Shown one piece after another: positions 10,983 to 27,130 of a stretch of 35,155 bases of DNA; the first letter of the stretch is position 1; each line of letters opens with the position of its first letter. This DNA comes from Clostridiales bacterium. GTDB lineage: Bacteria > Bacillota > Clostridia > Clostridiales > Caloramatoraceae. The stretch is from contig JARDZI010000007.1 of assembly GCA_029240935.1 (NCBI GenBank), positions 1 through 35,155 of the forward strand. Reading direction: 5' to 3'. The notes beneath the pieces are model-generated. The model saw nothing but the letters and a program-made list of their open reading frames with translations, was not told where the DNA came from and did not search any database. The position numbers and the translations under genes were made by a program.

Positions 10983-11085
10983 CAACCAGAGATATGTTAA
11001 ACAACACTAATGTCAGTAATACCACCATATCTGGGGGTAAAAGCGACAAGGGAGCTACGATAGTGAAAAAGTTAATGGAAATTCC
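10983..11085 (+). repeat. Class II attC-like repeat, copy 1
   Basis: caaccagag..aacactaatgtcagtaataccaccatatctgggggtaa..gcgaca..gatagtg..gttaatggaaattcc; same block at 20289-20392; contains ACCaCC-atatct-GGgGGT hairpin. Confidence 0.65.
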
Positions 11086-11183
11086 TTAGAAAGTTTTTGT
11101 TGAAATGATAGAGAGAAAAGGGTTTGAAAACAATTATAGAGAATAGCGAATTAGGAATAATTTATATTAGTGGAGGTAAATGA

Positions 11184-11774
11184 ATGGATATTGAGATATG
11201 TAAGTTGATACCTGAGCTTGCAGAAGATTACGTACATTTTTTTGACACTACACCACATGATAAAAATGTGGTAGAGCATAAATGTTATTGTGTGTGTTGG
11301 TGTAATGATGATTATGAGGGCAAAGATTTTTCAACAGCTGAGAAAAGAAGAAAATATGCCTTACAATATGTTAAAGGCAATAACATTCAAGGTTATCTTG
11401 CTTATAGTGGTAATACGGCCGTTGGATGGTGCAACGCCAATACAAAATCAGATTGCTTGAAATGCGTTAGTTGGCGAAGATTTATGGATTATGTACCTTT
11501 AGAGGAATCTAACACGGGGATAAAGGTGAAATCTGTATTTTGTTTCGTGATTGCACCGGAGATGAAAAGAAAAAGCATTGCCACCCTGCTACTGGAGCGT
11601 GTGTGTAAGGATGCGCTCCAGGATGGATTTGACTTTGTGGAGGTATACCCATACAAAGAATCTAGTTATCAATCATCAGATTTTGGCGGCTATTTTGAGA
11701 TGTATAAAAAAAGTGGGTTTCATGTGTCTTTTGAGACTGAACAAGGGCTTGTCATGAGGAAACAGTTAAAGTAG
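11184..11774 (+). CDS. GNAT family N-acetyltransferase
   Basis: FVIAPEMKRKSIATLLLERVCKDALQDGFDFVEVYPYKE; RBS ggaggt. Confidence 0.8.
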   Translation: MDIEICKLIPELAEDYVHFFDTTPHDKNVVEHKCYCVCWCNDDYEGKDFSTAEKRRKYALQYVKGNNIQGYLAYSGNTAVGWCNANTKSDCLKCVSWRRFMDYVPLEESNTGIKVKSVFCFVIAPEMKRKSIATLLLERVCKDALQDGFDFVEVYPYKESSYQSSDFGGYFEMYKKSGFHVSFETEQGLVMRKQLK

Positions 11775-11904
11775 TACTGTACAAAATAGGCAATATATGA
11801 AGCTAATAAATTCCAGTTTATTGTTTAACTAATTTACATAATTTTGTAATGTTCATAAGAGAGTAAGCCTTTTTGAGTTTAAAACTTATGATGGTTTGAG
11901 CGCT

Positions 11905-12040
11905 GGAACTTCCATTAAACAAAGTGTTCAAGTTCGCTTTGGCCAATTAGGGTCAAGGCTTCGAAGCAGCCAAAGCACATCATTTCGCCTCATAAATGGG
12001 CTCAAGGACGTCTTGAACAAGAAACGGTAGAGGACATCCC
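11905..12040 (+). repeat. attC-like structured repeat, site 1
   Basis: Arms tgttcaag/cttgaaca, gctttggc/gccaaagc, acatcatt/aaggacgt; left flank ggaacttccattaaac; right core degenerate (acggtag). Confidence 0.75.
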
Positions 12041-12082
12041 TAAGCAGCTTTTCTCTGAGTTGAAAATATATGGAGGAATAAC

Positions 12083-12526
12083 ATGGAACCCAATATAGAT
12101 TATAAAATCAAATATATAGATAATGAAGAGAAACTGAAACCTGTATTAGAATTATGTTATAATCTTTTAGGTCAACAATCGAGAGAAATAGAAAATTATA
12201 CATATGATGCTTGGAAAAACAGAATTAGTAAATGGTCAAATGTTTTGATATACGCTGAATTTGATGGTAAAGTAATATCTGCTGTACTTGGCAGACCAGA
12301 AAATAATGATAGTTTAGTCATGGGGTTTGTTGCGTGTGATGAGAAATTTAGAAATCAAGGCATCACTAGGTCCCTTGTTAATGACTTTGAAAATAATGCA
12401 AAAATGTTAGGATTTAAATATATAACATTAGGAGCAAGACCTAATGCAAATAATTTTTATGAAAAATGTGGTTATATTGAAATTGATGAAATGTATGGAC
12501 AGAAAATCTATAAAAAGATTTTATAA
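12083..12526 (+). CDS. GNAT family N-acetyltransferase
   Basis: VACDEKFRNQGITRSLVNDFENNAKMLGFKYITLGARPNANNFYEKCGYIE. Confidence 0.88.
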   Translation: MEPNIDYKIKYIDNEEKLKPVLELCYNLLGQQSREIENYTYDAWKNRISKWSNVLIYAEFDGKVISAVLGRPENNDSLVMGFVACDEKFRNQGITRSLVNDFENNAKMLGFKYITLGARPNANNFYEKCGYIEIDEMYGQKIYKKIL

Positions 12527-12838
12527 TTAAAATATTTTAAATGTAAATACTGTTGAATAATGGATTTGTATTATGCAAGATATTTGAGATTGATGATGGT
12601 TCGTTTGTGGAAATGCATAGTAAAGAAATAATTCACTCTATAATCTGAAAATTTAAAGCATATTGTAAAACAGAAGTACTTAATTCTCACTTTTCTTATA
12701 TTGTTTATCAAAATTTTTGGATTAGTTTGATTGAAAGCTTAAGATTTAATTGCTTAATAATGAATGACAACATTAGACTATTTTTTTATTTAGCCTAGAG
12801 TATAAATTTATTGATTATGTTTTGTGGAGGAATTATGA

Positions 12839-13654
12839 ATGAGAAATATCATAGATCAAGATCTTGTTTTTGAGCAGCTAATGACTGAAGAGGAATTGAT
12901 TCGTTTTAGTATGTTTTATGCCATATGTATAGCTAATGATTCTTTTATTGTAACAAATGATAATAATGTAATTATTGGGCAAGAACGTCCAACATCGCCT
13001 TTATGGATTTATATTAAGAATAATTTATCTGATGATGAACGAGAAGAAGTTGTTAAAATCATATGCGAAAGACTTGCACTTAACACTACTCTTAATGTAG
13101 ACGGAGAAGAAAAATACCTTAAATCAATACTTGAAGAGGTTTCAAGTGTCTCTGGAGTTCCCTTTAAGATAAGTCTTCCTAAAAATTCATATGTTTGTCA
13201 TAAACCTATAAAGCCTGAAATAATTTGTGGTGGTTTATCAAAAGCGAGGGAGAATGATTTAGAAACCCTTTCTGTATTTTCTAGAGATAATTGGGAAGAT
13301 ATTGGTTTTGGAATTCTTACACCAGAGCAAGCTAATAATTTCGCACAACGAAAACTAACTAACTCTGATTTTCATGTTTGGAGGAATGATAATGAAAGAG
13401 TTGTTGCCATGGCATCTGTACATAAATATGGGGACGTTGTACTAACTGATGGTGTCTTTACTGATAGAAATGAACGTAATAAGGGATATGCAAAATTTTT
13501 AATGTATAGAATTACAAAAGATTTGCTTAATGAGGGTTTCATGCCGATATTATATGCTGACCGTAGAAAAGCAGCTCCAAATCATGTATATAAAAGTATT
13601 GGTTATGAATATTGTGGGGAGGTTACTGAATATAGATTTTTAAATTGCAAATAA
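12839..13654 (+). CDS. GNAT family N-acetyltransferase
   Basis: GVFTDRNERNKGYAKFLMYRITKDLLNEGFMPILYADRRKAAPNHVYKSIGYEYCGE. Confidence 0.82.
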   Translation: MRNIIDQDLVFEQLMTEEELIRFSMFYAICIANDSFIVTNDNNVIIGQERPTSPLWIYIKNNLSDDEREEVVKIICERLALNTTLNVDGEEKYLKSILEEVSSVSGVPFKISLPKNSYVCHKPIKPEIICGGLSKARENDLETLSVFSRDNWEDIGFGILTPEQANNFAQRKLTNSDFHVWRNDNERVVAMASVHKYGDVVLTDGVFTDRNERNKGYAKFLMYRITKDLLNEGFMPILYADRRKAAPNHVYKSIGYEYCGEVTEYRFLNCK

Positions 13655-13875
13655 TTCGAAATTTAGTAGTTTATAGAAAAGCGAGACATTGTGAATCTCA
13701 CTCTTTTGAATGATGATTTAGTTGTATGAAAAATTAAGTTTGAAAAAACTGTGTAATAAATGGTGCAATTAGCAATGTTATTTTGGTGTTTTATCGTAGG
13801 TAACCTAGGATTATTGATTTTTTGTATAGCTGAAAGTGGTTTTGATTTGGAATATTTTTAAAGAGAGGTGTTTTT

Positions 13876-14448
13876 ATGCAAATAAAGCTTGAAAAGTTTA
13901 AGACAGATGAAATTCCAAAATTGGTATCATGGATTCCAGATAAAGAGTTTTTACTGCAGTGGGGAGGTCCTGCATATTCAATTTCTTTGATTAATGAACA
14001 GCTTCTTAATGATGTAAAGTCTATGGATGAGGATGAACCTAAAAATTTGATGTTCAGTGCAAAAGTGATTAATAGTAATGAAATGGTAGGTCATATTCAA
14101 CTATTAGGAATAGACAGAACAAATATGTCTGCTAGAATAGGAAGAGTTCTTGTTGGAGAAATGGAGAACAGAAATAAAGGAATTGGACTACAAATGGTTA
14201 ATCACCTCTTAGAAATCGCATTTAATAAATTACATTTGCATAGGATAGACTTGGGTGTGTTTGATTTTAATAAATCAGCTATTGCATGTTATGAAAAAGC
14301 AGGATTTATTATCGAAGGAAAGTTTAGAGATTGTAGAAAAATTGATGAACAATATTGGTCTTTAATTAATATGAGTATTCTTGAGGAAGAGTACAAGAAT
14401 ATATTTGATGGGAAATCACCATATAACATTGAAATTGCTAATATTTAA
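13876..14448 (+). CDS. GNAT family N-acetyltransferase (RimJ/RimL-like)
   Basis: RVLVGEMENRNKGIGLQMVNHLLEIAFNKLHLHRIDLGVFDFNKSAIACYEKAGFIIEGKFRD. Confidence 0.9.
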   Translation: MQIKLEKFKTDEIPKLVSWIPDKEFLLQWGGPAYSISLINEQLLNDVKSMDEDEPKNLMFSAKVINSNEMVGHIQLLGIDRTNMSARIGRVLVGEMENRNKGIGLQMVNHLLEIAFNKLHLHRIDLGVFDFNKSAIACYEKAGFIIEGKFRDCRKIDEQYWSLINMSILEEEYKNIFDGKSPYNIEIANI

Positions 14449-14493
14449 AGTTGCATGCATTTAGCAGATCTAAAAGTATAGAAGGAGAAACAT

Positions 14494-15411
14494 ATGAAAA
14501 GATTCATGATAGGTCAATTCAATAAATTTGATGTAAATAGGCAAAATAGAGATTTTAGGGATTATTTTTTTGGCATCGAAGTTAATCAATTGGAATCCAT
14601 TAGTGAATTGGAAATATTGAAGGATAATATTAGAGAAGGAAATTTGAATATAGGAATTCATTTTCCATTGCTGAAAAATCAATGGAGATCTAGGGATCCT
14701 CAATATCTTTCCAAGGATGAAACAACTTATATTGAGTCCATTGATTACATGGAAAAGGAATTTGTGAAAGCCAAGGAGCTTAATCCAGATTATATTTTGC
14801 TTCATTATCCCAAACCAGTTATTTTAGATGATAGAGTTGATTGGTCATCTTGGAGATTTTTTGATGATACGGAATATTATTATGAATCCGAAATTTCATA
14901 CCAATTCTTTGAGGAAAAAAGCAGAAATTTTTTTAAAATATTATCTGAAGCGGGTAAAAAATATAATTTTACTCCGGTATTGGAGCTAGATGGGTTAAAT
15001 AAATATGTATATGAAACAAACTTGCTTGAAGGCTTATTGAATGAATACCCAAATATCAAACTGTGTCTTGATTTTGGCAGAATACACCTACAGGATTGTA
15101 TTGATGATAACTTTAGGGGACTGGATATAGTAAGGAAGTTTGGAAGATATACTTATCTTGTACATTTGTGGAATTCAAGTATAGATAGAAATGGACATTA
15201 CCCTGCACTGAAGTCCCTAAGGGTAGAGGATGGATGGGGAGATATGGAAGCATATTTTGGGATTTTGAATGAGATGAATGATAAGTACAAAGTGTTGTTT
15301 GAACATCAGTCTCAACTTATAAGTGACTTTGAACTGGAAGAATGTTATAAATGGATCGGTGAGCTGGTGAGGAAGGTACCTACTAATAATGACGTTAATA
15401 ACAATCTATGA
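14494..15411 (+). CDS. TIM-barrel sugar phosphate isomerase/epimerase-like protein
   Basis: GNLNIGIHFPLL; YILLHYPKP; TPVLELDGL; IKLCLDFGRIHL; VLFEHQS pattern of xylose isomerase-like TIM barrels. Confidence 0.7.
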   Translation: MKRFMIGQFNKFDVNRQNRDFRDYFFGIEVNQLESISELEILKDNIREGNLNIGIHFPLLKNQWRSRDPQYLSKDETTYIESIDYMEKEFVKAKELNPDYILLHYPKPVILDDRVDWSSWRFFDDTEYYYESEISYQFFEEKSRNFFKILSEAGKKYNFTPVLELDGLNKYVYETNLLEGLLNEYPNIKLCLDFGRIHLQDCIDDNFRGLDIVRKFGRYTYLVHLWNSSIDRNGHYPALKSLRVEDGWGDMEAYFGILNEMNDKYKVLFEHQSQLISDFELEECYKWIGELVRKVPTNNDVNNNL

Positions 15412-15442
15412 GTACTTCAGTAAAATATAAAAGAGGTGTTCA

Positions 15443-15829
15443 ATGAAAGATAAGCGCAACAGAGCATTTTACCTGATAATGATATTTGTCGTTATTTGTT
15501 TAGGCCTTTTATCAAGAAGAATGACTGCCTATATACCATATACAATCAACTTGTATCTAGGGGACTCACTGTGGGCACTCATGATATATCTGATTGTGTG
15601 CATGATTTTCAGAAGCTGGACAACTAAGAGAACTGCATTAATAAGTATTCTATTCTGTTTCTCAATTGAGTTTAGCCAGTTATACCACAGTAACTGGATT
15701 GATGTGATCAGAAGGACAACTTTAGGGGGACTAATTCTAGGATATGGCTTTTTGTGGAGAGATTTGGCAGCTTATTTATTAGGTATAGGATTTGGAATAG
15801 TAATTGACCATAAATTAAATATGAGGTGA
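15443..15829 (+). CDS. DUF2809 family membrane protein
   Basis: GLLSRRMTAYIPYTINLYLGDSLWALMIYLI ... EFSQLYHSNWIDVIRRTTLGGLILGYGF. Confidence 0.85.
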   Translation: MKDKRNRAFYLIMIFVVICLGLLSRRMTAYIPYTINLYLGDSLWALMIYLIVCMIFRSWTTKRTALISILFCFSIEFSQLYHSNWIDVIRRTTLGGLILGYGFLWRDLAAYLLGIGFGIVIDHKLNMR

Positions 15830-15835
15830 TATTTC

Positions 15836-16462
15836 ATGATGAACAGCAAAGGCTTTGACAACTGGGCTGGTGAATATGATGAAAGTATTGCAAAGAGCAA
15901 GGGGTATCCCTTTGAAGGATATTATAATGTGTTAGCATATGTACACAATATGATCCAAATTAATAATGACACTAAAATTCTAGACATTGGAGTAGGAACT
16001 GGACAATTAACCTATGAACTATATAAAAAGGGCGGACATGTTTATGGAATTGACTTTTCAGAAAAAATGCTTGAATTTGCCAGAGAAAGGATGCCAGGAG
16101 CTATATTTTATAAATTTAACTTTAATAATGGAATACCAGAAGAGATAAAAGATTTAAAATTTGATTATATTGTTTCATCCTATGCCATTCATCATATAGA
16201 TGATAAACAAAAATTAAATTTTATTAAGGAATTAAAGAGCATTTTAAAGTATAATGGAATTATTGTATTAGCTGATGTTGCATTTAAAACTAGAGATGCA
16301 TTGAAAAAGTGCAAAGAAAAGGTGGGTAATGGGTGGGATAATGATGAAATATATATGATAGCCAATGAGATGGAGTCAGAACTAAGAAGAGAAGGATTTC
16401 TAACTGATTATGTTCAGATGTCCTCATGCGCAGGAATTTTAAAGATCAAGCTTGGAGCTTAA
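15836..16462 (+). CDS. Class I SAM-dependent methyltransferase
   Basis: ILDIGVGTGQLTYELYKKGGHVYGIDFSEKMLEFARERM. Confidence 0.92.
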   Translation: MMNSKGFDNWAGEYDESIAKSKGYPFEGYYNVLAYVHNMIQINNDTKILDIGVGTGQLTYELYKKGGHVYGIDFSEKMLEFARERMPGAIFYKFNFNNGIPEEIKDLKFDYIVSSYAIHHIDDKQKLNFIKELKSILKYNGIIVLADVAFKTRDALKKCKEKVGNGWDNDEIYMIANEMESELRREGFLTDYVQMSSCAGILKIKLGA

Positions 16463-16488
16463 AAGAAGTTACTAGGAAGGAGTAAATC

Positions 16489-16926
16489 ATGGAAATAACA
16501 TTTAATCATGCTACAGCAAATGATATAGAGGTGTTATTTGAGTTAAACAAAAAGCTTATAGAGAAATATGAAACTAACTTAAATCACGATTTTGAAAAGA
16601 TTTATTCCTGGGTAAAAAGAAAGCTAGAAAATAATATAAAAAGCTATCAGTGTATATACTTTGATGGTATAAAGGTAGGCTATTTTTATCTGCATAATGA
16701 TGGTGAAAAACTTGAACTTGATGACTTATATATTTTTGATGAATTTCAAGGAGGAGGCATAGGAACAAGGGTTTTAAAATATGTTGCTTCAATTGCAGCA
16801 GAAAAAAATAAAGCTGTTTTCTTATATGTGTTTGCAAAGAACCATGGAGCTATTAGATTATATCTTAGGAATGGATATGAGATTGTAAAGAATATTGATG
16901 ACAGTAGATACATAATGAGTACATAA
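16489..16926 (+). CDS. GNAT family N-acetyltransferase
   Basis: LDDLYIFDEFQGGGIGTRVLKYVASIAAEKNKAVFLYVFAKNHGAIRLYLRNGYEIV. Confidence 0.9.
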   Translation: MEITFNHATANDIEVLFELNKKLIEKYETNLNHDFEKIYSWVKRKLENNIKSYQCIYFDGIKVGYFYLHNDGEKLELDDLYIFDEFQGGGIGTRVLKYVASIAAEKNKAVFLYVFAKNHGAIRLYLRNGYEIVKNIDDSRYIMST

Positions 16927-17015
16927 GAGAACTCAGATTTTATGGAGCACTAAAAATGAAGTAATGAATAAATTAAACAAGCCTAGACAATAAAATTTTT
17001 AGGGGGATGACAAAT

Positions 17016-17516: not shown

Positions 17517-17570
17517 TTTTAATATAAAGTAAGTTTTGATTTTAAAGATAAATAAATATAAATGTAAAAT

Positions 17571-17602: not shown

Positions 17603-17654
17603 TAAAAACATCATTTATGTGCAATTATTAAAATATCATAAAAAGTTTTTTGTT

Positions 17655-17738: not shown

Positions 17739-18803
17739 ATGAGGAGAATTGGAACCATATCCTCTGCAGCAGGATTGATATTTCTTGGGGTATGGATGAT
17801 AATAAGCAAAACAAATCCAGCCCTTGGGGAAGAAGTTTTTAAGTGGTGGCCAGCAGTTATTGTAGTGTTAGGAATTGAAGTGCTATTTCAGTTCAGCAGA
17901 AAAGAAGGGGAGAAGACAAGAATAAACTTTCTTATAATCCCAGTTCTTTTAGTACTGCTAAGTGTGAATATATATCATGGAGTAAAAAGCGGTATTGGGG
18001 ATCTACTTGAAAATATTGATCTTGGTAATATTCCAAATATAAATATTAGTGGGCTTGATATAAACAACTATAAGCCTGTTAAGACAACCAAGACCTTAAA
18101 GGTTAGTGGAAATAAGCTATATTTTTCAGCAGATAATATAAAGTTGAATATAAAGAAATTAACAGCTGGAGACATAAGAATAGAAGGAGATGTTTATGTA
18201 GATAAGGACTACTCCATGGATATGTACAATATTATGGAGAAAAGTGAAGGCTATGGATACAATGTACAAATCAAAGAAAGCTATGTGAAAAAGGTTGAAC
18301 TTGATATTTATTTGCCTGATGGCATTGGATTAGAAATTGAAGGTGACAATCTTGAAATAATGAGTGACGATAAGTTTATTCAATCAGCTATTGATATTAA
18401 GGGTGATAATTGTAACATAAAGCTTCAGGGAGCAGCTTCAAGCCAGATCAATTTTGATAATGGAAATGTAAACCTTGAGAATATTAATGACATTAGGATA
18501 GCTGGTGGGAATTCAAATATAAAAATAGATGGAGAAGTTGAAAATATAAATATTAAATCAGATCTTGGAAGAATAGATGTGGACAATATAACATCCAAGA
18601 ATGTAAATATTGAAATGGACCAAGGAGTGGTAGACTTTAGAACTCAGGATGAAAATGCAGGAGTAAACATTGAACTTGATCAGGGAGTTACTGAAATCAA
18701 TGATTCTAAGTTTGTAAATGCAGGAAGCAGCAGGACATTTGGAACAGGGTCAGGCAAGGTTAAGATAATAATGGATCAGGGTGCAGTAAAATTCAGTAAT
18801 TAG
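17739..18803 (+). CDS. LiaF-like transmembrane plus DUF4097-type beta-repeat protein
   Basis: N-terminal LIFLGVWMIISK..EEVFKWWPAVIVVLGIEVLFQF (LiaI/LiaF-like TM region), C-terminal NINI/DQGV beta repeats. Confidence 0.75.
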   Translation: MRRIGTISSAAGLIFLGVWMIISKTNPALGEEVFKWWPAVIVVLGIEVLFQFSRKEGEKTRINFLIIPVLLVLLSVNIYHGVKSGIGDLLENIDLGNIPNINISGLDINNYKPVKTTKTLKVSGNKLYFSADNIKLNIKKLTAGDIRIEGDVYVDKDYSMDMYNIMEKSEGYGYNVQIKESYVKKVELDIYLPDGIGLEIEGDNLEIMSDDKFIQSAIDIKGDNCNIKLQGAASSQINFDNGNVNLENINDIRIAGGNSNIKIDGEVENINIKSDLGRIDVDNITSKNVNIEMDQGVVDFRTQDENAGVNIELDQGVTEINDSKFVNAGSSRTFGTGSGKVKIIMDQGAVKFSN

Positions 18804-18815
18804 GAGTGAGAAGCC

Positions 18816-19352
18816 TTGGAGGAACAGGATTTGATAAAGGGGCTTAGGGAAGGTGATGAGGACTGCTTCATCCGGGTGGTGGATTTGTACAAAAAGAAGG
18901 TTGTTTCTCTTTGCTATTCATACACCCATGATTATCAGGAAGCAGAGGATTTATCCCAGGAGGCCTTTATAACCATATACAACAGCATACAAAACTTCAG
19001 GGAAGAATGCTCCCTTTCAACATATATCTATAAAATAACTGTATCTAGATGCCTTGATTTTAAACGGAAGAGGAGCATTAAAAATTTTCTGACAGGTTTG
19101 ATTAGCGTCCATAAGGAAGAAAGCTTTGATGTTGATGATAAAAACTATGTAAGAGAATGTATTCAATCTTTATCTGAGGAGCTTAAAACTGCAGTGGTTT
19201 TATACTACTATGTTGGCTTAAGTCAGAAGGAAATTGGAGAGGTTTTAAATATATCTCAAAAAAATGTTGAGGGCAAGATATACAGGGCAAAACAAAAGCT
19301 TAGATTGGAATTTGAGAAGGGAGGGTTTATGGATGCAGCAAGAATGGGATGA
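18816..19352 (+). CDS. ECF-type RNA polymerase sigma factor (TTG start)
   Basis: YTHDYQEAEDLSQEAFITIYNSIQNF region 2; AVVLYYYVGLSQKEIGEVLNISQKNVEGKIYRAKQKLR region 4. Confidence 0.92.
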   Translation: MEEQDLIKGLREGDEDCFIRVVDLYKKKVVSLCYSYTHDYQEAEDLSQEAFITIYNSIQNFREECSLSTYIYKITVSRCLDFKRKRSIKNFLTGLISVHKEESFDVDDKNYVRECIQSLSEELKTAVVLYYYVGLSQKEIGEVLNISQKNVEGKIYRAKQKLRLEFEKGGFMDAARMG

Positions 19353-19623
19353 TTTAGATAGAGTTATTGAGGAATCCTTTGAGGATGTAAAAATCAGTGA
19401 TGGCTATAATTACAAGCTCATGGCTAAGATGAAAAAGAAGAAACAGGCCAGGAATCAGAGCTACACATTTGCATTCAGCCTTATACTTGCTGGGTTTTTA
19501 ATAATGTTTATGTATACCTCCGATGTTCAATATAGGCTTATTGATATACAATGTAGAATAAAAAGTGATATTACTATGCTTCAAAGCAACTTTAATATTT
19601 TTAACAACTTTAAGGGAGAGTGA
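19333..19623 (+). CDS. Single-TM protein, putative anti-sigma partner
   Basis: ORF overlaps the sigma gene by 20 bp, RBS gggaggg, one TM segment (FAFSLILAGFLIMFMYT). Confidence 0.6.
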   Translation: MQQEWDDLDRVIEESFEDVKISDGYNYKLMAKMKKKKQARNQSYTFAFSLILAGFLIMFMYTSDVQYRLIDIQCRIKSDITMLQSNFNIFNNFKGE

Positions 19624-20123
19624 TTATATTGCAAAAGAGGAATAGCTTTCTTACTTTTATAACAGCGTTGATTCCAGGGGTTGGATATATGTATCTAGGA
19701 CTTGTAAAAAGAGGCATTCAAGTTCTTCTAGCCTTTCTTCTGGTAGAACCTCTTTTCAGACTTCTTGGAATAGGCTTTTTAACTGGAATTGTAAGAATTC
19801 CAATATGGTTCTATACATTCTTTGACACCTTCAGTGTTGCCAGAATGCTCGATATGGAGAAGCCAGTACATGATACTGATTTTATATTCAGTAAGTATGT
19901 AAAGGATGGGGAATATCCAGTTGTAGATAGAAACAAGATAGGTAGAAATCTTACCTTAATAATAGCAATTGCATTAATACTTATTGGAATCTTTGCTATA
20001 TTAAACAATTTGTTTATATCTTACCCAATATACAAGTTAATTAGAAGCTATATAAGCTCATTGTTTATACCAGTACTTTTAGTTTTAGCAGGGATATATT
20101 TGTTGTTTAGAAATAGGAAATAG
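19620..20123 (+). CDS. Multi-pass membrane protein
   Basis: FLTFITALIPGVGYMYLGLVKRGIQVLL; paralogous to 33712-34224. Confidence 0.75.
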   Translation: MIILQKRNSFLTFITALIPGVGYMYLGLVKRGIQVLLAFLLVEPLFRLLGIGFLTGIVRIPIWFYTFFDTFSVARMLDMEKPVHDTDFIFSKYVKDGEYPVVDRNKIGRNLTLIIAIALILIGIFAILNNLFISYPIYKLIRSYISSLFIPVLLVLAGIYLLFRNRK

Positions 20124-20140
20124 AATAGAAATTTTAATAG

Positions 20141-20194
20141 GGCAACTATATTTTACATTAGTATTTAAGATTTTAAATGTAAAATATAGTTGCC
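20141..20194. terminator. Perfect 18-bp inverted repeat after the sigma-factor operon
   Basis: ggcaactatattttacat ... atgtaaaatatagttgcc, 18-nt spacer. Confidence 0.6.
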
Positions 20195-20288
20195 TTATTA
20201 TGTAAGTATTTATGTAAACCAAATTAGTACCATAATTGTGATATTGTGGTATAATACTACTAGGTCAGGTGACCCAGGATACTGTATA

Positions 20289-20392
20289 ACAACCAGAGTT
20301 AGGATAGACGACACTAATGTCGGTAATACCGCCATATCTAGGGGTAATAACGACAGAGGAGGGGCGATAGTGCAATAGTTAATGGAAATCCC
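20289..20392 (+). repeat. Class II attC-like repeat, copy 2
   Basis: caaccagagttaggatagacgacactaatgtcggtaataccgccatatctaggggtaataacgaca..gcgatagtgcaatagttaatggaaatccc; preceded by TAACAA core (20286). Confidence 0.65.
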
Positions 20393-20554
20393 TGAGCAAA
20401 TTAAGATGACTTTATGAAAGAAAATCTAAAAAATTAGTAATGAAGAATAGTAGGATATTATTCATCATGCAGGCCAATAGGATATTGAAGAACAGTATTA
20501 AGTTATTTACAAATGCGTAGCAAATAACAACTTTTTATAAAGGGGGGGATTAAA

Positions 20555-20767
20555 ATGCCTTTACTTGCTCCATACGTGTTAATATACGTATCACTTATAT
20601 TCATATTTAGTGCATTGTTGATGTGGCTCTGGAATATTACTATAACAAAAATTTTTAATATTAGGGATATTACCTATTGGGAAGCATTCAGATTAATGAT
20701 TATAGCATGGCTTATTTTTGGAAAGGGTCTTGAGCTTACTATTAGTTTTATAATAAGTCTGCTATGA
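20555..20767 (+). CDS. Small two-TM hypothetical protein, cassette payload
   Basis: 70 aa, RBS agggggggat; bracketed by attC-like repeats. Confidence 0.6.
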   Translation: MPLLAPYVLIYVSLIFIFSALLMWLWNITITKIFNIRDITYWEAFRLMIIAWLIFGKGLELTISFIISLL

Positions 20768-20864
20768 TTCTTATTTGCTACGTATTTTATACATGATGTA
20801 TAATATTCTTATTTTGTTTATCAAAATTTTTTAGATTAGTTTAGCCTGAGAGTTTGAGGTAAAC

Positions 20865-20996
20865 GGGACTTCCACTAACAACGCATGGCAGTTCGTGCTG
20901 GGGTGGTCAAGCTCTGGGGCAGCAGCACACATGTCTTCAATACTGCTATCGCCTATTTCAGACACGTCTGCCATGCAAAACGTTAGTAGAAATCCC
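20865..20996 (+). repeat. attC-like structured repeat, site 2
   Basis: gggacttccactaac/gttagtagaaatccc; gcatggcag/ctgccatgc; gtgctg/cagcac; acatgtct/agacacgt. Confidence 0.85.
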
Positions 20997-21050
20997 TAAG
21001 TAGATAAGAGCCAGGATCATAAAGAATTTTAATCATTAAGGCATGATAGT
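20983..21050 (+). repeat. Shared cassette leader alpha, copy 1
   Basis: ttagtagaaatccctaagtagataagagccaggatcataaagaattttaatcattaag; matches 23301 and 27059. Confidence 0.75.
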
Positions 21051-21181
21051 AATAAATTGTATATAGCAAATACGTTATTTAAAAAGCAAATGCAAATCTG
21101 CATCTATGATGTATTCGAAATATAAATGATGCAGAAATAAACTTCAGTTGTAAATTAAAGACCTAAAAGAGGTGGGATAAA

Positions 21182-21700
21182 ATGAACGCATTTTTGATAG
21201 TTATACCAATTTTACTTACAAGGTATGGTCTACTAAGTATTTTAAACGGGGAAGCATTAAAACGTGCGGGTTTCTTTGCTCCTTTAATAGGTAGAGAAAA
21301 AGTAGCATTCTGGGTTTATCAAATTACAACAATCCTTATTATACTAAAATTATTATTTCTCAAAATCAGAACCGACTCTAATTGGTTTTATATAGGTTTG
21401 ATTATATATAGTTTAGGACTTGTTTTATATATTGTATCTATAGTAAATTATGCTAAGCCTAAAATGAATGGAATAAATTTAAATGGGTTATATCGAATAT
21501 CCCGCAATCCTATGTACATAGCATATTTCATCTATTTTGTTGGGTGTGTATTACTTACACATTCATGGATATTACTTGTGTTATTAATAGTTTTTCAAGT
21601 ATCAGCACACTGGATTATTCTTTCAGAAGAAAGATGGTGTATCAGGAAATTTGGAGAAGAGTTCATAAAATATATGAGTAAAGTGAGACGTTATATTTAG
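21182..21700 (+). CDS. Isoprenylcysteine carboxyl methyltransferase-family membrane protein
   Basis: NLNGLYRISRNPMYIAYFIYFVGCVLL ... LSEERWCIRKFGEEFIKYMSKVRRYI. Confidence 0.85.
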   Translation: MNAFLIVIPILLTRYGLLSILNGEALKRAGFFAPLIGREKVAFWVYQITTILIILKLLFLKIRTDSNWFYIGLIIYSLGLVLYIVSIVNYAKPKMNGINLNGLYRISRNPMYIAYFIYFVGCVLLTHSWILLVLLIVFQVSAHWIILSEERWCIRKFGEEFIKYMSKVRRYI

Positions 21701-21768
21701 ATAGATATGATATAACTTTATTATTCGGGTGATACTTCGCATTATTTATATTTTGGGAGGTTATGTTC

Positions 21769-22350
21769 ATGGTAATTGATTATTCAAAATATTACTGGAG
21801 GAATTCGGTTATAACTCTTAGACGGCCCAAAGAAGATGACTGGGAATGTTTGGTACATCATATGTTTGATAGCCAAGGGCGCTTTTTCTTTAACGAGAAA
21901 ATAGATTTGCCAACAGACCTTGAACTCTACAAAAGAAGAACTGAATTTTTGGACCCAGAAAAATTAAACTATACATGTTTTGCGATTGAAAATAGTGAAG
22001 GAAAACATGTTGGGATAGCAAATCTCTTTAATATTGATGAACGAAACGGGACTTTCGGTCCAATTGGAATCGTAATAAATCCAACAGACAGAGGTAAGGG
22101 ATATGCTGTTGTGGCTTACAGAATGCTTGGAAAATACATGTTTAATGAACGAAGAATGCATAAATGGAATAATGGGTATATAGAAGAAAATAAAGCTTCC
22201 GAAACTTTACATAAAAAAATAGGTTTTATAATCGAAGGCGTTCAAAAAGACATGTATTATCATGAAGGTAGGTATTGGAATCAGGTCATTTGCGGCATGA
22301 CAGAAACACAGTTTTTCGAAAATGAAAAACGACGCCCTAACCTCTACTAA
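21769..22350 (+). CDS. GNAT family N-acetyltransferase
   Basis: GPIGIVINPTDRGKGYAVVAYRMLGKYMFNERRMHKWNNGYIEENKASETLHKKIGFIIEGVQKD. Confidence 0.9.
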   Translation: MVIDYSKYYWRNSVITLRRPKEDDWECLVHHMFDSQGRFFFNEKIDLPTDLELYKRRTEFLDPEKLNYTCFAIENSEGKHVGIANLFNIDERNGTFGPIGIVINPTDRGKGYAVVAYRMLGKYMFNERRMHKWNNGYIEENKASETLHKKIGFIIEGVQKDMYYHEGRYWNQVICGMTETQFFENEKRRPNLY

Positions 22351-22428
22351 TAAGCATAATCTATAGCCGAGTTAGTTCATAACTTTCTTGTATTATATAG
22401 CAATTTATTATAAAAGTACGGGATGTAT

Positions 22429-22565
22429 TTGCCACTGCATATAATACCACATGGCAGTTGGTGCTGGGGTGGTCAAGCTCTTAAGCAGCCAGCACACATG
22501 TCTTCAATACGGTTATCGCCTATTTTAGACACGTCTGCTATGCAAAACGTTATATGCCATCGCAA
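22429..22565 (+). repeat. attC-like structured repeat, site 3 (variant core)
   Basis: ttgccactgcatataat/gttatatgccatcgcaa; catggcag/ctgctatg; gtgctgg/ccagcac; acatgtct/agacacgt. Interior nearly identical to site 2. Confidence 0.82.
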
Positions 22566-22658
22566 TATGAATAGTAATTATTAAAAATATATTTGGAGGG
22601 TTTTGAATGAAAAGTTTAGGGTTATGGCTTTGCAATTCATCTCGGAGGTGAGTCGTTT

Positions 22659-22721
22659 ATGAATGCCATAAAAGGATATATGGTCTTCGGAATTGTCACC
22701 GTTTTAACCTGTTTGGTTTAG
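22659..22721 (+). pseudogene. Truncated 20-aa membrane peptide remnant
   Basis: RBS ggaggtgag then MNAIKGYMVFGIVTVLTCLV*. Confidence 0.35.
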
Positions 22722-22760
22722 TGATTGGTAATTTGGTATATAAGTAAAGGGGTGTTGATT

Positions 22761-23141
22761 GTGAAAATTAATAAGATTGCAGCTGGATACTCGATATTCG
22801 TTGGGTTATCTATGATCGGTATGTGGATTATGTTCTATTGCACCGGGGAAATTCCCGAACTAAATACTAAGCCAGCAGAAATAGGGTTACATATAACTGG
22901 CGAGATGATTACTGCTGTCGTACTTATAATCGGAGGTTATGCTATATTTACAAAAAAGAGCTGGGGACTCCAGGTATATACTTTGTCAATGGGAATGTTG
23001 TTATATACGTTAATTGTAAGCCCAGGATATTACGTCCAGAGAGGAGAAATCCCTTTTATAATTATGTTTTCTGTTCTATTCCTTTTGTCAGTACTCTTTA
23101 TTATTTTTTCGATTATTAAAAGGGAAGGTTTCCGCAACTAA
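22761..23141 (+). CDS. Multi-pass membrane protein (GTG start)
   Basis: About 126 aa, four hydrophobic segments, MKINKIAAGYSIFVGLSMIGMW. Confidence 0.65.
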   Translation: MKINKIAAGYSIFVGLSMIGMWIMFYCTGEIPELNTKPAEIGLHITGEMITAVVLIIGGYAIFTKKSWGLQVYTLSMGMLLYTLIVSPGYYVQRGEIPFIIMFSVLFLLSVLFIIFSIIKREGFRN

Positions 23142-23186
23142 CAATAGGGAAATGATAATGTTAGAAATTCTTTGGAGACGTGACAG

Positions 23187-23314
23187 TGTATAACAAGGCA
23201 CTCCCATTCGTTGTGGCTAAATAGGGTCAAGCCTACGAAGCAGCCACAACACATGCTTTTGCCACCTACCGAGGCTCAAGCACGTCGGGAGTTCAAAACG
23301 TTAGTAGAAATCCC
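23187..23314 (+). repeat. attC-like structured repeat, site 4
   Basis: gtataacaa..acgttagtag; actccc/gggagt; gttgtggct/agccacaac; acatgctt/aagcacgt. Confidence 0.85.
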
Positions 23315-23370
23315 TAAGTAAATAAAGACTAGAATCATAAAGAATTTAAATTATTAAAGAATAATAGCAA
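23301..23370 (+). repeat. Shared cassette leader alpha, copy 2
   Basis: ttagtagaaatccctaagtaaataaagactagaatcataaagaatttaaattattaaag. Confidence 0.75.
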
Positions 23371-23535
23371 TTTATGAAGAACTAATCTTGTTAGATTAGG
23401 GAGAAAAAAAGCCTTCTTTTTCTTTTGTAAATTGAATGAGTTATGGTAACATATTAATTTATTGTAATAAACATACACCTATGATAATATATATACGAAT
23501 GTATGTTCGATAAAAATTTAAAGGGAGTTGGGATT

Positions 23536-24288
23536 ATGAAAAATGCTGAAATAATCAAGCACATTGATGATGGAGCAAATTTTTATCTGAGGTTACTGGG
23601 TGATGCGGAACACATGGAGTATATTGACAACGGCTATTATTCAATTATCAGACCTAAAAGTGGCCAAAAAGGTGGTACATCACTTTTCAATATAAGGTTG
23701 GAGCATTTGTATGATAAGGAGCTAAAAGAAAAAATCAATGAAATTACGGAATTAAATATACATACTTGGTGGGGATTAGGATTGTCAGAAAGGATATTTA
23801 ATGCAATATTCGGTGAGAATAGACCAGAACCAGTTCCTGAACCCAACGACGAAGAAGCTAATATGGCGATGCTATCTAAAGATAAACCACAGTATGAAGA
23901 GATTGCTATGCCTATATCTGTGAAAAGGGTTGATAATATGGAAGATTTTAAATTGTGGGCTAATATAAGTAATACCGTATTGCACGATGGATATCCAATT
24001 ATACATCCTATAAATCATTACCGCCTAAGCCAAAATGGTGTTATGCCTTGCTATATTGCATATTATAACGGAACAGCTGCTTCTGTATGCTCAATTATAA
24101 ATAATAAGGATATTTCATCCCTTGAATTTGTTGCAACTATAGACGAGTTTCGTAGAAGAGGCCTTGCCAGGGCTGTTTGTATTAAAGCAATTGATGATGC
24201 AGTAAAGAATGGTTCTAAAATCATTACACTGAGAGCCTTTGCTGGAGCAAAAAAACTATATCAGACAATGGGGTTTAGGATTTATTAA
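23536..24288 (+). CDS. GNAT family N-acetyltransferase with extended N-terminus
   Basis: SLEFVATIDEFRRRGLARAVCIKAIDDAVKNGSKIITLRAFAGAKKLYQTMGFRIY. Confidence 0.88.
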   Translation: MKNAEIIKHIDDGANFYLRLLGDAEHMEYIDNGYYSIIRPKSGQKGGTSLFNIRLEHLYDKELKEKINEITELNIHTWWGLGLSERIFNAIFGENRPEPVPEPNDEEANMAMLSKDKPQYEEIAMPISVKRVDNMEDFKLWANISNTVLHDGYPIIHPINHYRLSQNGVMPCYIAYYNGTAASVCSIINNKDISSLEFVATIDEFRRRGLARAVCIKAIDDAVKNGSKIITLRAFAGAKKLYQTMGFRIY

Positions 24289-24413
24289 TTAAAAATATAA
24301 GCATTAAAATAGAAAATATTTAGAGTAGATACATATTAGTTACTTCCCATATTTCATTTGTTGCTTATCAAGTTGGGATTTTTATTTCCCAGTAATTGAA
24401 AGTTTTGTGTGTG

Positions 24414-24548
24414 GGGACTTCTACTAACAAAGGCTTGCAGTTTGTTGTGGAAGCCAAGGAGTCAAGCTATAAAGTCGCCACAACACATTCCTTCGCCACA
24501 TGAATGGGCTCAGGGATGTCTGCAAGCAGGAACGTTAGTGGAAATTCC
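24414..24548 (+). repeat. attC-like structured repeat, site 5
   Basis: gggacttctactaacaa..aacgttagtggaaattcc; gcttgcag/ctgcaagc; tgttgtgg/ccacaaca; acattcct/agggatgt. Confidence 0.85.
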
Positions 24549-24620
24549 ATTGAAGGTTTCGATAGAAATAAAAAGGGTTTGAAAACAATTATAGAAAATA
24601 GAGAATTAAGGATAATTTAT
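24533..24620 (+). repeat. Shared cassette leader beta (second copy at 11071-11165)
   Basis: gttagtggaaattcc..aaaaagggtttgaaaacaattatagaaaatagagaattaaggataatttat; compare aaaagggtttgaaaacaattatagagaatagcgaattaggaataatttat at 11117. Confidence 0.75.
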
Positions 24621-24699
24621 CTGATATATAGATAAATAGGAATTTGTTGTTGAGTTTTTTATATAATATCACACTGTTTCAATGAAAGGATAGATGTTG

Positions 24700-25824
24700 A
24701 TGGCAAGCATATTGATGATAAATGTACCATATTCAGGACATACAAATCCAACTTTACCATTAGCAAACGAACTTATAAAGCGCGGACATAAAGTTTTGTA
24801 CATTAATGCAGAGGAATTCAGAGAAAAAATAGAAGCAACGGGTGCAACGTTCATACCATATATAAATTATCCATCTAATCCAAGTGAACAACAGCAAAAG
24901 ACAAAATGCTTTAGAGCAGCTTTTGAAACTGCACTAAATATTAACGTAAGGATAGATTTACTTATTTATGAAATGTTTTTCTATCCAGGGATTCGTATTG
25001 CTGAAAAACTGGGTATTCCATGTGTTCGTCAATTCTCTCAACCTGCATGGAGTAAGGAGAGTGTGAGTGATGCGACAATGTTCCTTAGAATAAGTTGCAT
25101 GCTCATAGATATGCAAGTGATGCGAAACAAAAATGTTGATTTTATGCAATTGAAAAACAAAAGTCTTATACAAGCAGTTTTATATGATAAGCCGGATCTG
25201 AATATCGTATATGTACCACAGGTATTTCAACCTTATCGAAATTCCTTTGGCGAAAATTACTTATTTATAAATCCTCGGCTTCAACCATCGTTGTCAAAAC
25301 AAGTGATTCCATTTAGCAAAATGAGGAGACCTATAATTTATATTTCATTAGGTAGTATCATAAGCAATAAAGGTTTCTGTAAAGAATGTATAAGGGCTTT
25401 TGGTGGAAAAGAATTAACTGTGATACTCAATACAGGAAAAGTAAATCCACAAGCACTGGGGAAAATACCGGATAACATTTATGCTTATTCGTTTGTTCCT
25501 CAAATTGAAGTTCTTAGAAAAGCTGATCTTTTTCTTACACATTGCGGAATGAATAGCATAAACGAAGCAATGACTTTGGGTGTTCCTATGGTTGCAATGC
25601 CGTTTATCAATGACCAGATTTCCAATGCGAATCGTGTAGTAGAGCTGGGAATTGGCAAAAAAGTACGGTCGTTTCCAAGCAGTGGCAGAGAGCTATATGC
25701 TACATGCCAAAGTGTCATAAGGGATGAAAAGATCAAGGAACGATGCTATGAATTACAAATGGAGCTGAAAAAAGATGAAAACTTTGAAAAAATTATAATA
25801 GAAATTGAGAAATTACTAATTTGA
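24700..25824 (+). CDS. MGT-type (macrolide/UGT-like) glycosyltransferase
   Basis: MINVPYSGHTNPTLPLANELIKRGHKVLYINAEEFREKIEATGATFIPY; FLTHCGMNSINEAMTLGVPMVAMPFINDQISNANRVVELGIG. Confidence 0.92.
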   Translation: MASILMINVPYSGHTNPTLPLANELIKRGHKVLYINAEEFREKIEATGATFIPYINYPSNPSEQQQKTKCFRAAFETALNINVRIDLLIYEMFFYPGIRIAEKLGIPCVRQFSQPAWSKESVSDATMFLRISCMLIDMQVMRNKNVDFMQLKNKSLIQAVLYDKPDLNIVYVPQVFQPYRNSFGENYLFINPRLQPSLSKQVIPFSKMRRPIIYISLGSIISNKGFCKECIRAFGGKELTVILNTGKVNPQALGKIPDNIYAYSFVPQIEVLRKADLFLTHCGMNSINEAMTLGVPMVAMPFINDQISNANRVVELGIGKKVRSFPSSGRELYATCQSVIRDEKIKERCYELQMELKKDENFEKIIIEIEKLLI

Positions 25825-25979
25825 TTGCCTAATGTAGGGTTTATGAGCATAACCTTTAGCTTACAAATTCCAATTTATCGTTGAGTTAATTCATAATATT
25901 CTTAAAATGTGTGATTTAATTGAAAATAATACTAATAATTTGATGTGGTATTTAGAGCAAATTAAAATGTGGCGGAGAC

Positions 25980-26115
25980 GGAACTACAACTAACAAGGCA
26001 CTCCCATTCGTTGTGGCTAAATGGGGTCAAGCCTACGAAGAAGCCGCAACACATGCTTTCGCCACCTGCCGGGGCTCAAGCATGTCGGGAGTTCAAAACC
26101 GTTAGTTGCAATTCC
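25980..26115 (+). repeat. attC-like structured repeat, site 6
   Basis: ggaactacaactaacaa..ccgttagttgcaattcc; actccc/gggagt; gttgtggct/agccgcaac; acatgctt/aagcatgt. Confidence 0.85.
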
Positions 26116-26151
26116 TAAGTGAGTTAATTAACAGTAGTAGAATAAGGCGAA

Positions 26152-26391
26152 ATTGGTCTTAATGAACATGATGATTTGCATGTTCTGGAATTTGGATATG
26201 GTATTTTGGAAGCATACCATGGTGAAGGTTATGCAAAGGAAGCAGCGAAGCCGGCAGTATGTTGGGCTAAATCATATTTTGATATTCCATATCTGGTTGG
26301 TACGGCAGAAGTAGATAATACTGCTTCTAGGAAAGTTTTGGAACATTGTGGATTTGAACTTGAAGGTATTAAAAACCTTGAAGTTCATTAG
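26152..26391 (+). pseudogene. N-terminally truncated GNAT acetyltransferase
   Basis: LEFGYGILEAYHGEGYAKEAAKPAVCWAKSYF...TASRKVLEHCGFELEGIK; begins just after site 6 without the N-terminal half. Confidence 0.75.
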
Positions 26392-26426
26392 GAGAATTAA
26401 TGTTTCCTTGGGGAAGGGGGAAATAT

Positions 26427-27047
26427 ATGTTTTGTCCAAACTGTGGCAGTGAGTATAGAGAAGGATATAAAATATGTTCAGATTGTAACATCCCATTAGT
26501 TGATGAATTTCAAATGGGAAAGATAGCTGGTCATGAAAATTATCATATGAAAGTAGTAAAAGCGATTATATGTATTTTATTGCTGAGGATTCTTGCAATT
26601 ATGAAGAGCAAAACATATTATAGAATATCTGAAATTTCATATAAGCTTTTTGTTTTTGTGCTGTTTATACTAAACTTCTTAACCCTAAAATATATTTCTT
26701 TATGGGTCGTTGGACCAGGTTGGGAGATACCTGTTAACTTAGTAAATCCAATAAGGTTTATTAGTAGCTGTACAAGAATTAATATCTTGTTGTGTTTGAT
26801 TTCATTCATTATGGGATATAGAAGGTTTAGGTTTCAAAAGTTTACGAATAAAATAATCTCAGTTTTCTGGTTCCTTGGGAGCGTAGAGTTAGTCTTTATT
26901 TCATCTGATTTTATAAAACTGCCTAAGCAATATGTTGATTTGATAATACATTACTGGTGGATAGGAATGATATTGCCTTCTTTTATATTATGGCTACTAT
27001 TGTATGCAGATTCTATAATTAGGCATAAAGATAATGCATCTGATTAA
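26427..27047 (+). CDS. Zinc-ribbon membrane protein
   Basis: MFCPNCGSEYREGYKICSDCNIPLVDE plus several TM segments; RBS ggggaaggggg. Confidence 0.75.
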   Translation: MFCPNCGSEYREGYKICSDCNIPLVDEFQMGKIAGHENYHMKVVKAIICILLLRILAIMKSKTYYRISEISYKLFVFVLFILNFLTLKYISLWVVGPGWEIPVNLVNPIRFISSCTRINILLCLISFIMGYRRFRFQKFTNKIISVFWFLGSVELVFISSDFIKLPKQYVDLIIHYWWIGMILPSFILWLLLYADSIIRHKDNASD

Positions 27048-27058
27048 AAATTGTGCAT

Positions 27059-27130
27059 TTAGTAGAAATCCCTAAGCAAATAAGGACTAAAATTGTAAAG
27101 AATTTAAATCATTAAGATATTATAGCATTT
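27059..27130 (+). repeat. Shared cassette leader alpha, copy 3 (no adjacent attC-like hairpin)
   Basis: ttagtagaaatccctaagcaaataaggactaaaattgtaaagaatttaaatcattaag. Confidence 0.75.

Follow-up and report, generated by a model that had tools for sequence, protein, structure and literature searches.

Two cassette arrays in a clostridial genome apparently belong to an integron-like system whose recombinase lacks the IntI patch

The window, by which we mean the whole 35,155-nucleotide stretch of DNA analysed here, carries two separate arrays, at 11072-12026 and 20379-26101, in which unrelated single-gene units are parted by hairpin sites and which are each headed by an attI-like element (Table 1). 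A first-pass annotation had described a single array in this interval, and while the cassette arrays it recognised are real, it had run the two together and overlooked their attI-like heads. All six related sites that it had listed are present on the + strand within about 10 nt of the starts it quoted, and its size of ~130 bp per site is corrected to a conserved attC-like core of 113-117 nt with flanks of ~15 nt. Its list of payloads (a small membrane protein, ICMT/PEMT plus GNAT, a membrane protein, a GNAT, and a glycosyltransferase) was right as judged by open reading frames and Pfam and, as it had stated, no integrase is found among the open reading frames of the window. Sites 2-6 are spaced 0.6-1.5 kb apart. 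Complementarity between the two ends of a cassette, described below, is weak (6/15) in two of the four internal window cassettes, suggesting that the window arrays may be decayed in part.

Table 1. Features of the two arrays and their surroundings (window coordinates)
Feature	Position	Strand	Details and basis
attI-like element 1	10985..11071	+	Crossover G11071|T11072; 78% repeat of 20275-20402; motif common to the attI elements that follow the integrase gene on C118 and in Clostridium sp. CS001; placed by complementarity to end of first cassette
Cassette, GNAT acetyltransferase (11184-11774) + attC	11072..12026	+	Pfam GNAT 1.3e-4; own ends complementary
attC-like site 1	11915..12030	+	R' decayed (CGGTAG); covariance model 111.6 bits, E 4e-23
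GNAT ORF downstream of site 1 with no attC following it	12083..12526	+	ORF; weak GNAT family matches
attI-like element 2	20290..20378	+	Crossover G20378|T20379; repeat of element 1, two-palindrome motif, end complementarity
Cassette, small membrane protein (20555-20767) + attC	20379..20982	+	ORF; own-end complementarity analysis
attC-like site 2	20874..20986	+	Crossover G20982|T20983; covariance model 93.6 bits, E 1e-18; fold z -5.4
Cassette, ICMT/PEMT-like methyltransferase (21182-21700) + GNAT (21763-22350) + attC	20983..22549	+	Pfam PF04191, PF13302
attC-like site 3	22440..22553	+	Covariance model 94.1 bits
Cassette, membrane protein (22725-23141) + attC	22550..23300	+	No Pfam match
attC-like site 4	23189..23304	+	Covariance model 120.7 bits, E 2e-25
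Cassette, GNAT (23503-24288) + attC	23301..24534	+	Pfam GNAT 2e-8; own ends 11/15 complementary
attC-like site 5	24423..24538	+	Covariance model 111.1 bits; fold z -5.5
Cassette, UDPGT/macrolide-type glycosyltransferase (24694-25824) + attC	24535..26101	+	PF00201 1.5e-20; TIGR01426 244.5 bits, under cut-off 260
attC-like site 6	25989..26105	+	Covariance model 117.7 bits; fold z -5.2
Last unit, without terminal attC: truncated GNAT (26176-26391) + zinc-ribbon membrane protein (26400-27047)	26102..27058	+	ORFs, family matches
Orphan cassette start TTAGTAGAAATCCC...	27059..27129	+	No attC precedes it; leader the same as those following sites 2 and 4; repeat family D2

The attC-like sites fold as a hairpin with a three-way junction and strong covariation. 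Derived from 11 sites of the same genome, the fold comprises 31 pairs, 19 of them with compensatory double changes, which bears out the TAACAA...AAAACGTTA outer frame and the branched interior that had been proposed from the first reading. Among 68 sites, 91.5% of cells were paired and 27 of the 31 pairs were altered on both sides, compared to <40% of cells paired in a control in which the partners were slid by 1-3 columns. The R'' and R' boxes (AAC...GTT) and the single-strand fold are found at cassette ends. In classical integrons a conserved extrahelical G in the L'' box serves strand choice; in the 11 own sites the consensus inner helix has 8 pairs and no extrahelical base, and what makes the sites asymmetric is their central spacer together with a conserved A/C mismatch located outside. 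When the whole 3.9-Mb genome was searched with a covariance model trained on these 11 sites, window sites 1-6 were recovered at E = 1e-18 to 2e-25, and 12 strong sites were found genome-wide, with the next match at only E = 0.01.

The first ~17 nt of each cassette are complementary to its own end and not to that of its neighbor (10.3 versus 5.7 of 15 positions across 53 cassettes), a pattern present in 48 of the 53 and never equalled in within-contig permutations, and the pairing contains one conserved mismatch. This own-end complementarity, which does not rely on the hairpin model, pins the crossover at G|TT. An outer 15-bp stem, which in several window sites had at first seemed a fixed part of attC, was rejected as such, since across genomes it arises from pairing between the two ends of one cassette and is mostly interrupted within arrays. 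The position of attI was set by the same complementarity in the host genome, in the isolate Clostridium sp. CS001, and in two further genomes (G094 and G242), and its two-palindrome motif is present at other loci; a repeat considered as a second attC type (D3) proved to be attI. Exchange of cassettes between arrays at G|TT is seen in a Fic cassette common to two genomes (G118 and G353), in which similarity starts at G|TT and is preceded by attC in one and by attI in the other, and in tet(X), which occupies a cassette of this kind that follows attI in Acinetobacter but the end of an attC in Sphingobacterium, the two copies being identical from G|TT on. Tandem identical cassettes on one contig (G094:C48) were left out of the evidence because an intervening run of N could be an assembly effect.

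That the sites are structured, on the coding strand, and 3' of genes would also be expected of structured 3'-UTR RNAs, terminator-like or regulatory, recurring after accessory genes without recombination. An Rfam scan of the window gave a T-box upstream of valS as its sole match, however, and known RNA families, introns, and IS RNA were ruled out as the identity of the hairpin sites by this lack of a match; an RNA regulator was rejected because the boundaries follow recombination points. Against the RNA explanation, the element has its boundary at G|TT, and one and the same cassette occurs behind different partners; the explanation also fails to account for the own-end complementarity across a whole gene and the link to one recombinase family, and we consider it highly improbable. 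Equally improbable is the insertion beside genes of IS200/IS605-type hairpins or of transposable elements that are non-autonomous hairpins or MITE-like. Such elements would explain multiple copies in one genome, but each site falls at the junction between the 3' end of a unit and the beginning of the following one, always in the same orientation, and the enzyme linked to the sites is a tyrosine recombinase with attI instead of a transposase; a lack of target-site duplications and of copies within genes also argues against such elements. The first-pass annotation had named, as grounds for abandoning a cassette array, repeats at fixed positions irrespective of adjacent genes, or inside a known transposon or intron, with a negative score on an attC model and no variable payloads in related strains; the sites instead part variable payloads, and no Rfam family of transposon or intron RNA matches them.

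Its remark that an integrase is lacking, true for the window, does not extend to the genome, in which another contig (C118) carries host arc genes, a tyrosine recombinase, attI, and cassettes with the same hairpins as the window. The attI adjoins the integrase and marks the insertion point. The host genome is available as a draft MAG (83% complete, 6% contaminated), in which binning and a shared attC family, but not assembly, connect the window with C118. Contamination of the MAG as the source of the system is unlikely, since it is complete in near-finished genomes and in isolate CS001, which has the same full layout with seven sites in 8 kb; the layout recurs in many other Bacillota genomes. 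The catalytic residues RKHRH-Y (R204, K229, H294, R297, H320, Y329) are invariant in the aligned integrases, and the best PDB match both by sequence and by fold is 2A3V, an integron integrase-attC complex. The own-genome hairpin model found sites in 11 of 291 genomes of the class, several on contigs carrying the integrase or fragments of it, and downstream of independently found integrase orthologues at seven loci plus one weak match, while giving no match in housekeeping DNA or in the class 1 integron locus tested. A second hairpin model found further sites near phylum-level orthologues. Related recombinases were found at 80 loci of viral contigs, and of these the own-genome model matched just the two closest orthologues, both times downstream and on the same strand; the impression that the more distant ones had no arrays was wrong, as arrays in the classical divergent orientation emerged there with a broader model and with a simple scan for hairpins.

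The recombinase on C118, in which the integron-specific patch is absent, is not an IntI. The ~40-aa patch (I2) is missing from 20 of 20 clostridial orthologues, in which the span between the same motifs is 64 aa versus 104-105 aa in IntI2-like and IntI1, and alignment to 2A3V leaves a gap in the C118 integrase where the patch lies. The protein scored 211.4 bits with the integron-integrase model TIGR02249, below its curated cut-off of 265, and 221.2 bits with NF040815 (XerA_Arch), above the cut-off of 220, a name that covers mixed Xer and integrase proteins and is no evidence of function. In the tree, the IntI clade (100/99, 17 rows) and the patchless clade (99/99, 38 rows) are sisters at 94/80, the latter also taking in recombinases from viral contigs and Bacteroidota plasmids. 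A classical integron or CALIN, that is, a true IntI-type integron gained horizontally with its integrase merely outside the window, would share the AAC/GTT boxes, the G|TT in attC-like sites, the cassette arrays, and attI, and a few integrons and CALINs have been reported in Firmicutes (PMC9024848); given the shortened span between motifs, the score below the integrase cut-off, a position outside the IntI clade, and a class 1 locus not matched by the hairpin model, this origin is very unlikely. The earlier description of an integron/CALIN-like array native to a Clostridium-like genome thus stands as far as an integron-like system with attC-like sites and mobile single-gene cassettes, but not as a classical integron, the integrase being patchless and sister to IntI. 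The alternative it had offered, a convergent non-integron hairpin system, is right in part: attC folds unlike the classical site (three-way junction, ~17-bp cassette-end box), yet with IntI as the sister of the enzymes' clade in the tree, common descent is likelier than convergence. Absence of the patch and the sister position together place this integron-like system in a patchless lineage of its own.

The sequences show the order of integrase, attI, and cassettes, a conserved attC with its three-way junction, a boundary at G|TT, cassettes complementary at their own ends, homologous cassettes at separate locations, and an integrase that has no patch and stands as sister to IntI. On this basis the two arrays of the window very probably belong to a chromosomal system that captures gene cassettes in an integron-like way, with recombination presumably carried out by an integrase encoded elsewhere in the genome (C118) that is related to IntI but patchless. 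In the proposed mechanism, this tyrosine recombinase would join double-stranded attI to the folded single strand of a cassette attC, with crossover at G|TT placing the cassette downstream of attI with its own attC at the 3' end, and attC x attC recombination would release a cassette as a circle. The C118 integrase would act in trans on the two attI-headed window arrays. The ~17-bp outer stem is complete solely in the free circle, where its stability exceeds that of the array form by 4.7-6.4 kcal/mol, and may act as a ratchet favouring insertion over excision. Since the patch is reported to be essential for IntI activity, and for integron function (PMC8138268), an active patchless enzyme would need another means to stop second-strand exchange.

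Integron surveys recognise the integrase by its patch (for example PMC2426708), and IntegronFinder 2.0 reported one complete integron in Firmicutes (PMC9024848). The patchless lineage is present in about 5-6% of sampled genomes of the phylum, plus viral contigs, so much of the cassette traffic in Gram-positive bacteria may have escaped counting. It also supplies a comparison for the stated puzzle of how attC sites and the I2 domain were each selected before the other existed (PMC4792948). Conceivably, though we put this at a little under even, integron recombination on folded attC strands predates the patch, with the patchless enzymes of Bacillota, Bacteroidota, and viral contigs sharing an attC-using ancestor with IntI and the patch gained later in the IntI branch only; if true, this would answer the 'chicken-and-egg' order of attC and the domain reading it. 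The antibiotic-resistance gene tet(X) seems to have been carried by relatives of the system in other phyla, suggesting how this tigecycline-inactivation gene turned mobile. A structure-guided recombinase needing no patch is possibly a useful genetic tool.

Like the classical integron, this system has a tyrosine recombinase with attI next to it, cassettes that hold one gene each and share one orientation, AAC...GTT boxes, crossover at G|TT, a folded palindromic attC, and cassette-end complementarity. It differs in an integrase without I2, with an extra N-terminal domain and in a separate clade, in the three-way junction that caps attC, in an outer box of ~17 bp with an obligatory mismatch at position 10, where classical cassette self-pairing is reported as 9-11 nt (PMC2727003), and, in Bacillota, in an integrase co-directional with the cassettes. 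The window arrays resemble CALINs in having no integrase within 35 kb and, for sites 2-6 as called with the own-genome model, at least two attC <4 kb apart; unlike CALINs, each is headed by its own attI-like element and the genome holds an integrase elsewhere (C118). Simple recombinases of the XerA/XerC/XerD type (NF040815) are likewise patchless with a catalytic domain of similar length, whereas the enzymes here are linked to attI and attC arrays, belong to the IntI-sister clade, and bear the extra N-terminal domain. They may belong to the 'integron-like' subgroup of Smyshlyaev et al. 2021 (PMC8138268), in which the insertion is described as not fully conserved; that account of the subgroup gives no cassette arrays for insertion-less members. 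The xerD/tnpF genes beside tet(X3) and blaVEB-3 fall in the patchless clade, with tet(X) in a matching cassette, but are truncated enzymes on resistance plasmids, annotated there merely as recombinases. The system thus looks and apparently works like an integron, with a recombinase that does without the domain thought to be needed by every integron enzyme.

The search of this draft metagenome-assembled genome and its relatives with an integron-integrase model led to another of its contigs, C118, where a 361-aa tyrosine recombinase with intact catalytic residues follows the host genes for arcA, OTC, and carbamate kinase. It is followed in the same direction by attI (the insertion-point element heading an array), an unknown ORF, attC, GNAT, attC, a MurJ-like ORF, and attC. 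The further presence of mfd, glmU, purR, and spoVG-like genes on C118 (identities partly by reading of the sequences) indicates a Clostridia-type chromosomal setting. A single attC family is common to C118 and the window arrays, on which the enzyme presumably works in trans.

The six attC-like hairpins that the first-pass annotation had placed 3′ of + strand genes in the window were all present, to within ~10 nt. Aligned with three sites from C118 and one each from contigs C150 and C375 (n = 11), they gave an RNAalifold consensus with a three-way junction, in which an asymmetric unpaired spacer (4 and 7 nt on its two sides) separates a short outer helix (TAAC/GTTA) from an 8-bp inner helix that leads into two hairpins. 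Compensatory double changes occur at 19 of 31 pairs. The covariance model R1, trained on these 11 sites, matched 12 sites in the 3.9-Mb genome before E jumped from 1e-14 to 0.01, E-values from such home-made models being rough. In a set of 68 sites drawn almost entirely from other genomes, both sides had changed at 27 of 31 pairs, and paired cells reached 91.5%, compared to 72% in shuffled and <40% with slid partners; this alignment is model-fitted and biased towards the model, but the slid controls are nonetheless far off.

Repeat D3, found immediately 5′ of each window array, is an attI that the first-pass annotation missed, giving the window two arrays headed by attI. Both C118 and Clostridium sp. 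CS001 carry a D3-type element 3′ of the integrase; at other loci, the attI-like element is formed by two imperfect palindromes terminating at the crossover point G↓TT, as in genome G306 (TTCACGAACTTATGTTCGTAGATACC...TTTACGAACCTATGTTCGTAGATGACGAAG↓TTATAAG). Similar 5′ leaders (50–96 nt, behind G↓TT) are common to window cassettes with unrelated genes and are possibly promoters, or traces of gene swapping inside cassettes. The window also contains a duplicated block encoding a small TM protein and a membrane protein whose C-terminal half is repetitive, the first copy adding an ECF-like sigma factor and ending directly 5′ of the second attI.

Coordinates of array elements and neighbouring features in the window and in other loci
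Sequence	Position	Feature
Window	10968-11095; 20275-20402	Repeat D3 copies
Window	10985-11071	attI of array 1, followed by one GNAT cassette and decayed attC
Window	20290-20378	attI of array 2, followed by five cassettes
Window	27059	Cassette start without attC
Window	11116-11165; 24571-24620	Shared 5′ leader
Window	20983-21053; 23301-23371; 27059-27129	Shared 5′ leader
Window	17739-20123; 32546-34224	Duplicated block
Window	4905-5153, minus strand	T-box leader 5′ of valyl-tRNA synthetase gene
L080 (CS001)	19918-20766	Second patchless recombinase
L103 (Chryseobacterium plasmid)	4965-8212	Patchless integrase, then Crp + RidA cassette and second cassette
L292 (NZ_CP123862.1)	2502-3832	tet(X) cassette locus
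L293 (NZ_CP054002.1)		tet(X) cassette locus
L104 (NZ_CP041297.1)	4890-6097	tet(X) cassette locus
L106 (NZ_CP084417.1)	3136-4757	blaVEB-3 behind truncated patchless recombinase
L143 (IMGVR_UViG_3300000568_000548)	2044-4116	Integron beside tape-measure-like gene
L161 (IMG/VR)	1-6000, minus strand	Array of short cassettes

The cassette boundary was tested independently of the hairpin model, which extends only 2–3 nt beyond the outer boxes (R″ and R′), by asking, in 53 cassettes, how far positions 4–18 after G↓TT match the reverse-complemented stretch that precedes R″. A cassette's own two ends were complementary at 10.3 of 15 positions, compared to 5.7 when the same R″ was matched with the array neighbour, 5.8 for other same-contig pairs, and 5.0 for other genomes (s.d. 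1.8). The own-end value was higher than the neighbour's in 48 cassettes, lower in 3, and tied in 2, and the maximum of two thousand within-contig permutations was 8.1. This identifies G↓TT as the cutting point of the unit, whose ends were formerly joined. Position 10 was complementary in 2% only, with A on the start side and C on the end side each at 70 of 74 sites. In DNA folding, the joined form beat the array form by a mean of 4.7 (top strand) or 6.4 (bottom strand) kcal/mol, an advantage seen in 41 of 51, which may act as a ratchet favouring insertion; we infer an insertion bias for the enzyme, which would act on single strands.

Cassettes are shared between arrays of different sampled genomes. 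The first cassette behind attI in G353, a Fic cassette, has an 82% identical counterpart inside the G118 array; the similarity starts at the TTA after the G, and the 5′ neighbour is attC in G118 and attI in G353. G118 also shares a GNAT cassette with G189 (88%), and further cassettes are common to G145 and G169 (77%) and to G094 and G191 (98.6%).

Clostridium sp. CS001 (NZ_JAIZZN010000028) encodes an integrase 69% identical to that of C118, followed within 8 kb by seven attC sites with mostly single genes between them; the array end adjoins a second, shorter patchless recombinase, 282 aa long and from a different subclade. With its training restricted to the window's own genome, R1 detected sites (E ≤ 1e-5) in 11 of the 291 genomes searched at class level. 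Five of the other genomes among these encode full-length integrase orthologues (49–57% identity) and two more encode fragments, in part on the very contigs that bear the sites. On contig G118:C47, 11 sites are spread over 11 kb, and nearly all are separated by one ORF. Protein searches recovered orthologues in 20 of 391 genomes at class level (E ≤ 1e-75) and 25 of 399 at phylum level (E ≤ 1e-70), prevalences that are rough since genomes were sampled; several lie on single-contig assemblies. Same-strand R1 sites lie downstream of the integrase at loci L127, L130, L131, L132, L135, L137, and L138, with one weak match at L128 and none found in the L129 flank (G361). A model from a wider alignment, R2, added sites near orthologues at phylum-level loci L236, L238, and L241–L245 and viral-contig loci L143 and L144. 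At L143, the Bacillota-type patchless integron lies beside a gene resembling those for phage tape-measure proteins, which hints at carriage by phages. At L091 (G288:C35) and L092 (G297:C8), integrase fragments with stop codons stand beside surviving attC arrays; these are integrons decaying to integrase-less arrays.

The integrase lacks the patch (I2), the additional domain of IntI, and is not IntI: the same two catalytic motifs are 64 aa apart in 20 clostridial orthologues, compared to 105 in IntI1 and 104 in an IntI2-like protein, and phmmer against 2A3V placed a gap at the same region. Its top fold matches were 2A3V chains, and it has an extra N-terminal domain of ~65–85 aa, modelled as strand-strand-helix-strand-strand-helix (AlphaFold2, mean pLDDT 84, pTM 0.58). 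In a 64-row tree, from which thinly filled columns including the patch were removed, support was 100/99 for the IntI clade, 99/99 for the patchless clade, and 94/80 for their sister relation, with Xer outside.

The patchless clade also includes recombinases of viral contigs and Bacteroidota plasmids, and the 'xerD/tnpF' genes beside tet(X3) and blaVEB-3. On Chryseobacterium plasmid NZ_CP041688.1, a patchless integrase precedes two cassettes, both of which have an attC and show the mismatch at position 10. On Sphingobacterium faecium plasmid pWB8, tet(X2) occurs as a complete cassette (...GAACCG↓TTATGTGCCATTTTTG...tet(X2)...AAAACGGCACATAACAAACAAATTGGC...GCCAATTTGCCAAACG↓TTATATGCC), and the same attC occurs in Bacteroides fragilis with other DNA behind it. 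In Acinetobacter, tet(X3) begins at the same TTATGTGCC, directly behind the attI of a truncated patchless recombinase. The tet(X) cassette start is identical from G↓TT on, preceded by an attC end in Sphingobacterium and by attI in Acinetobacter, which makes the recombinase next to tet(X3) a probable patchless-integron remnant. The junction before blaVEB-3 (GGGAG↓TTAGCGG) resembles attI followed by a cassette.

Arrays of short cassettes were seen on viral contigs (L145–L222, IMG/VR). Scanning 78 IMG/VR loci for plain TAAC...CGTTA hairpins gave 244 sites on one strand and 6 on the other, 236 of them upstream of the integrase, with a median cassette of 288 bp. Own-end complementarity was weak (2.7 vs 2.2 of 11), and the cassette boundary is therefore less well shown there.

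IntegronFinder 2.0 reported one complete integron in Firmicutes, in Limnochorda pilosa (PMC9024848), and archaeal integrons have the additional domain, whose origin together with attC has been called a chicken-egg paradox (Escudero et al., PMC4792948). The IMG/VR patchless loci resemble classical integrons in their divergent integrase-cassette layout. Classical attC sites self-pair over 9–11 nt (PMC2727003), whereas self-pairing in the present family spans ~17 with a fixed mismatch.
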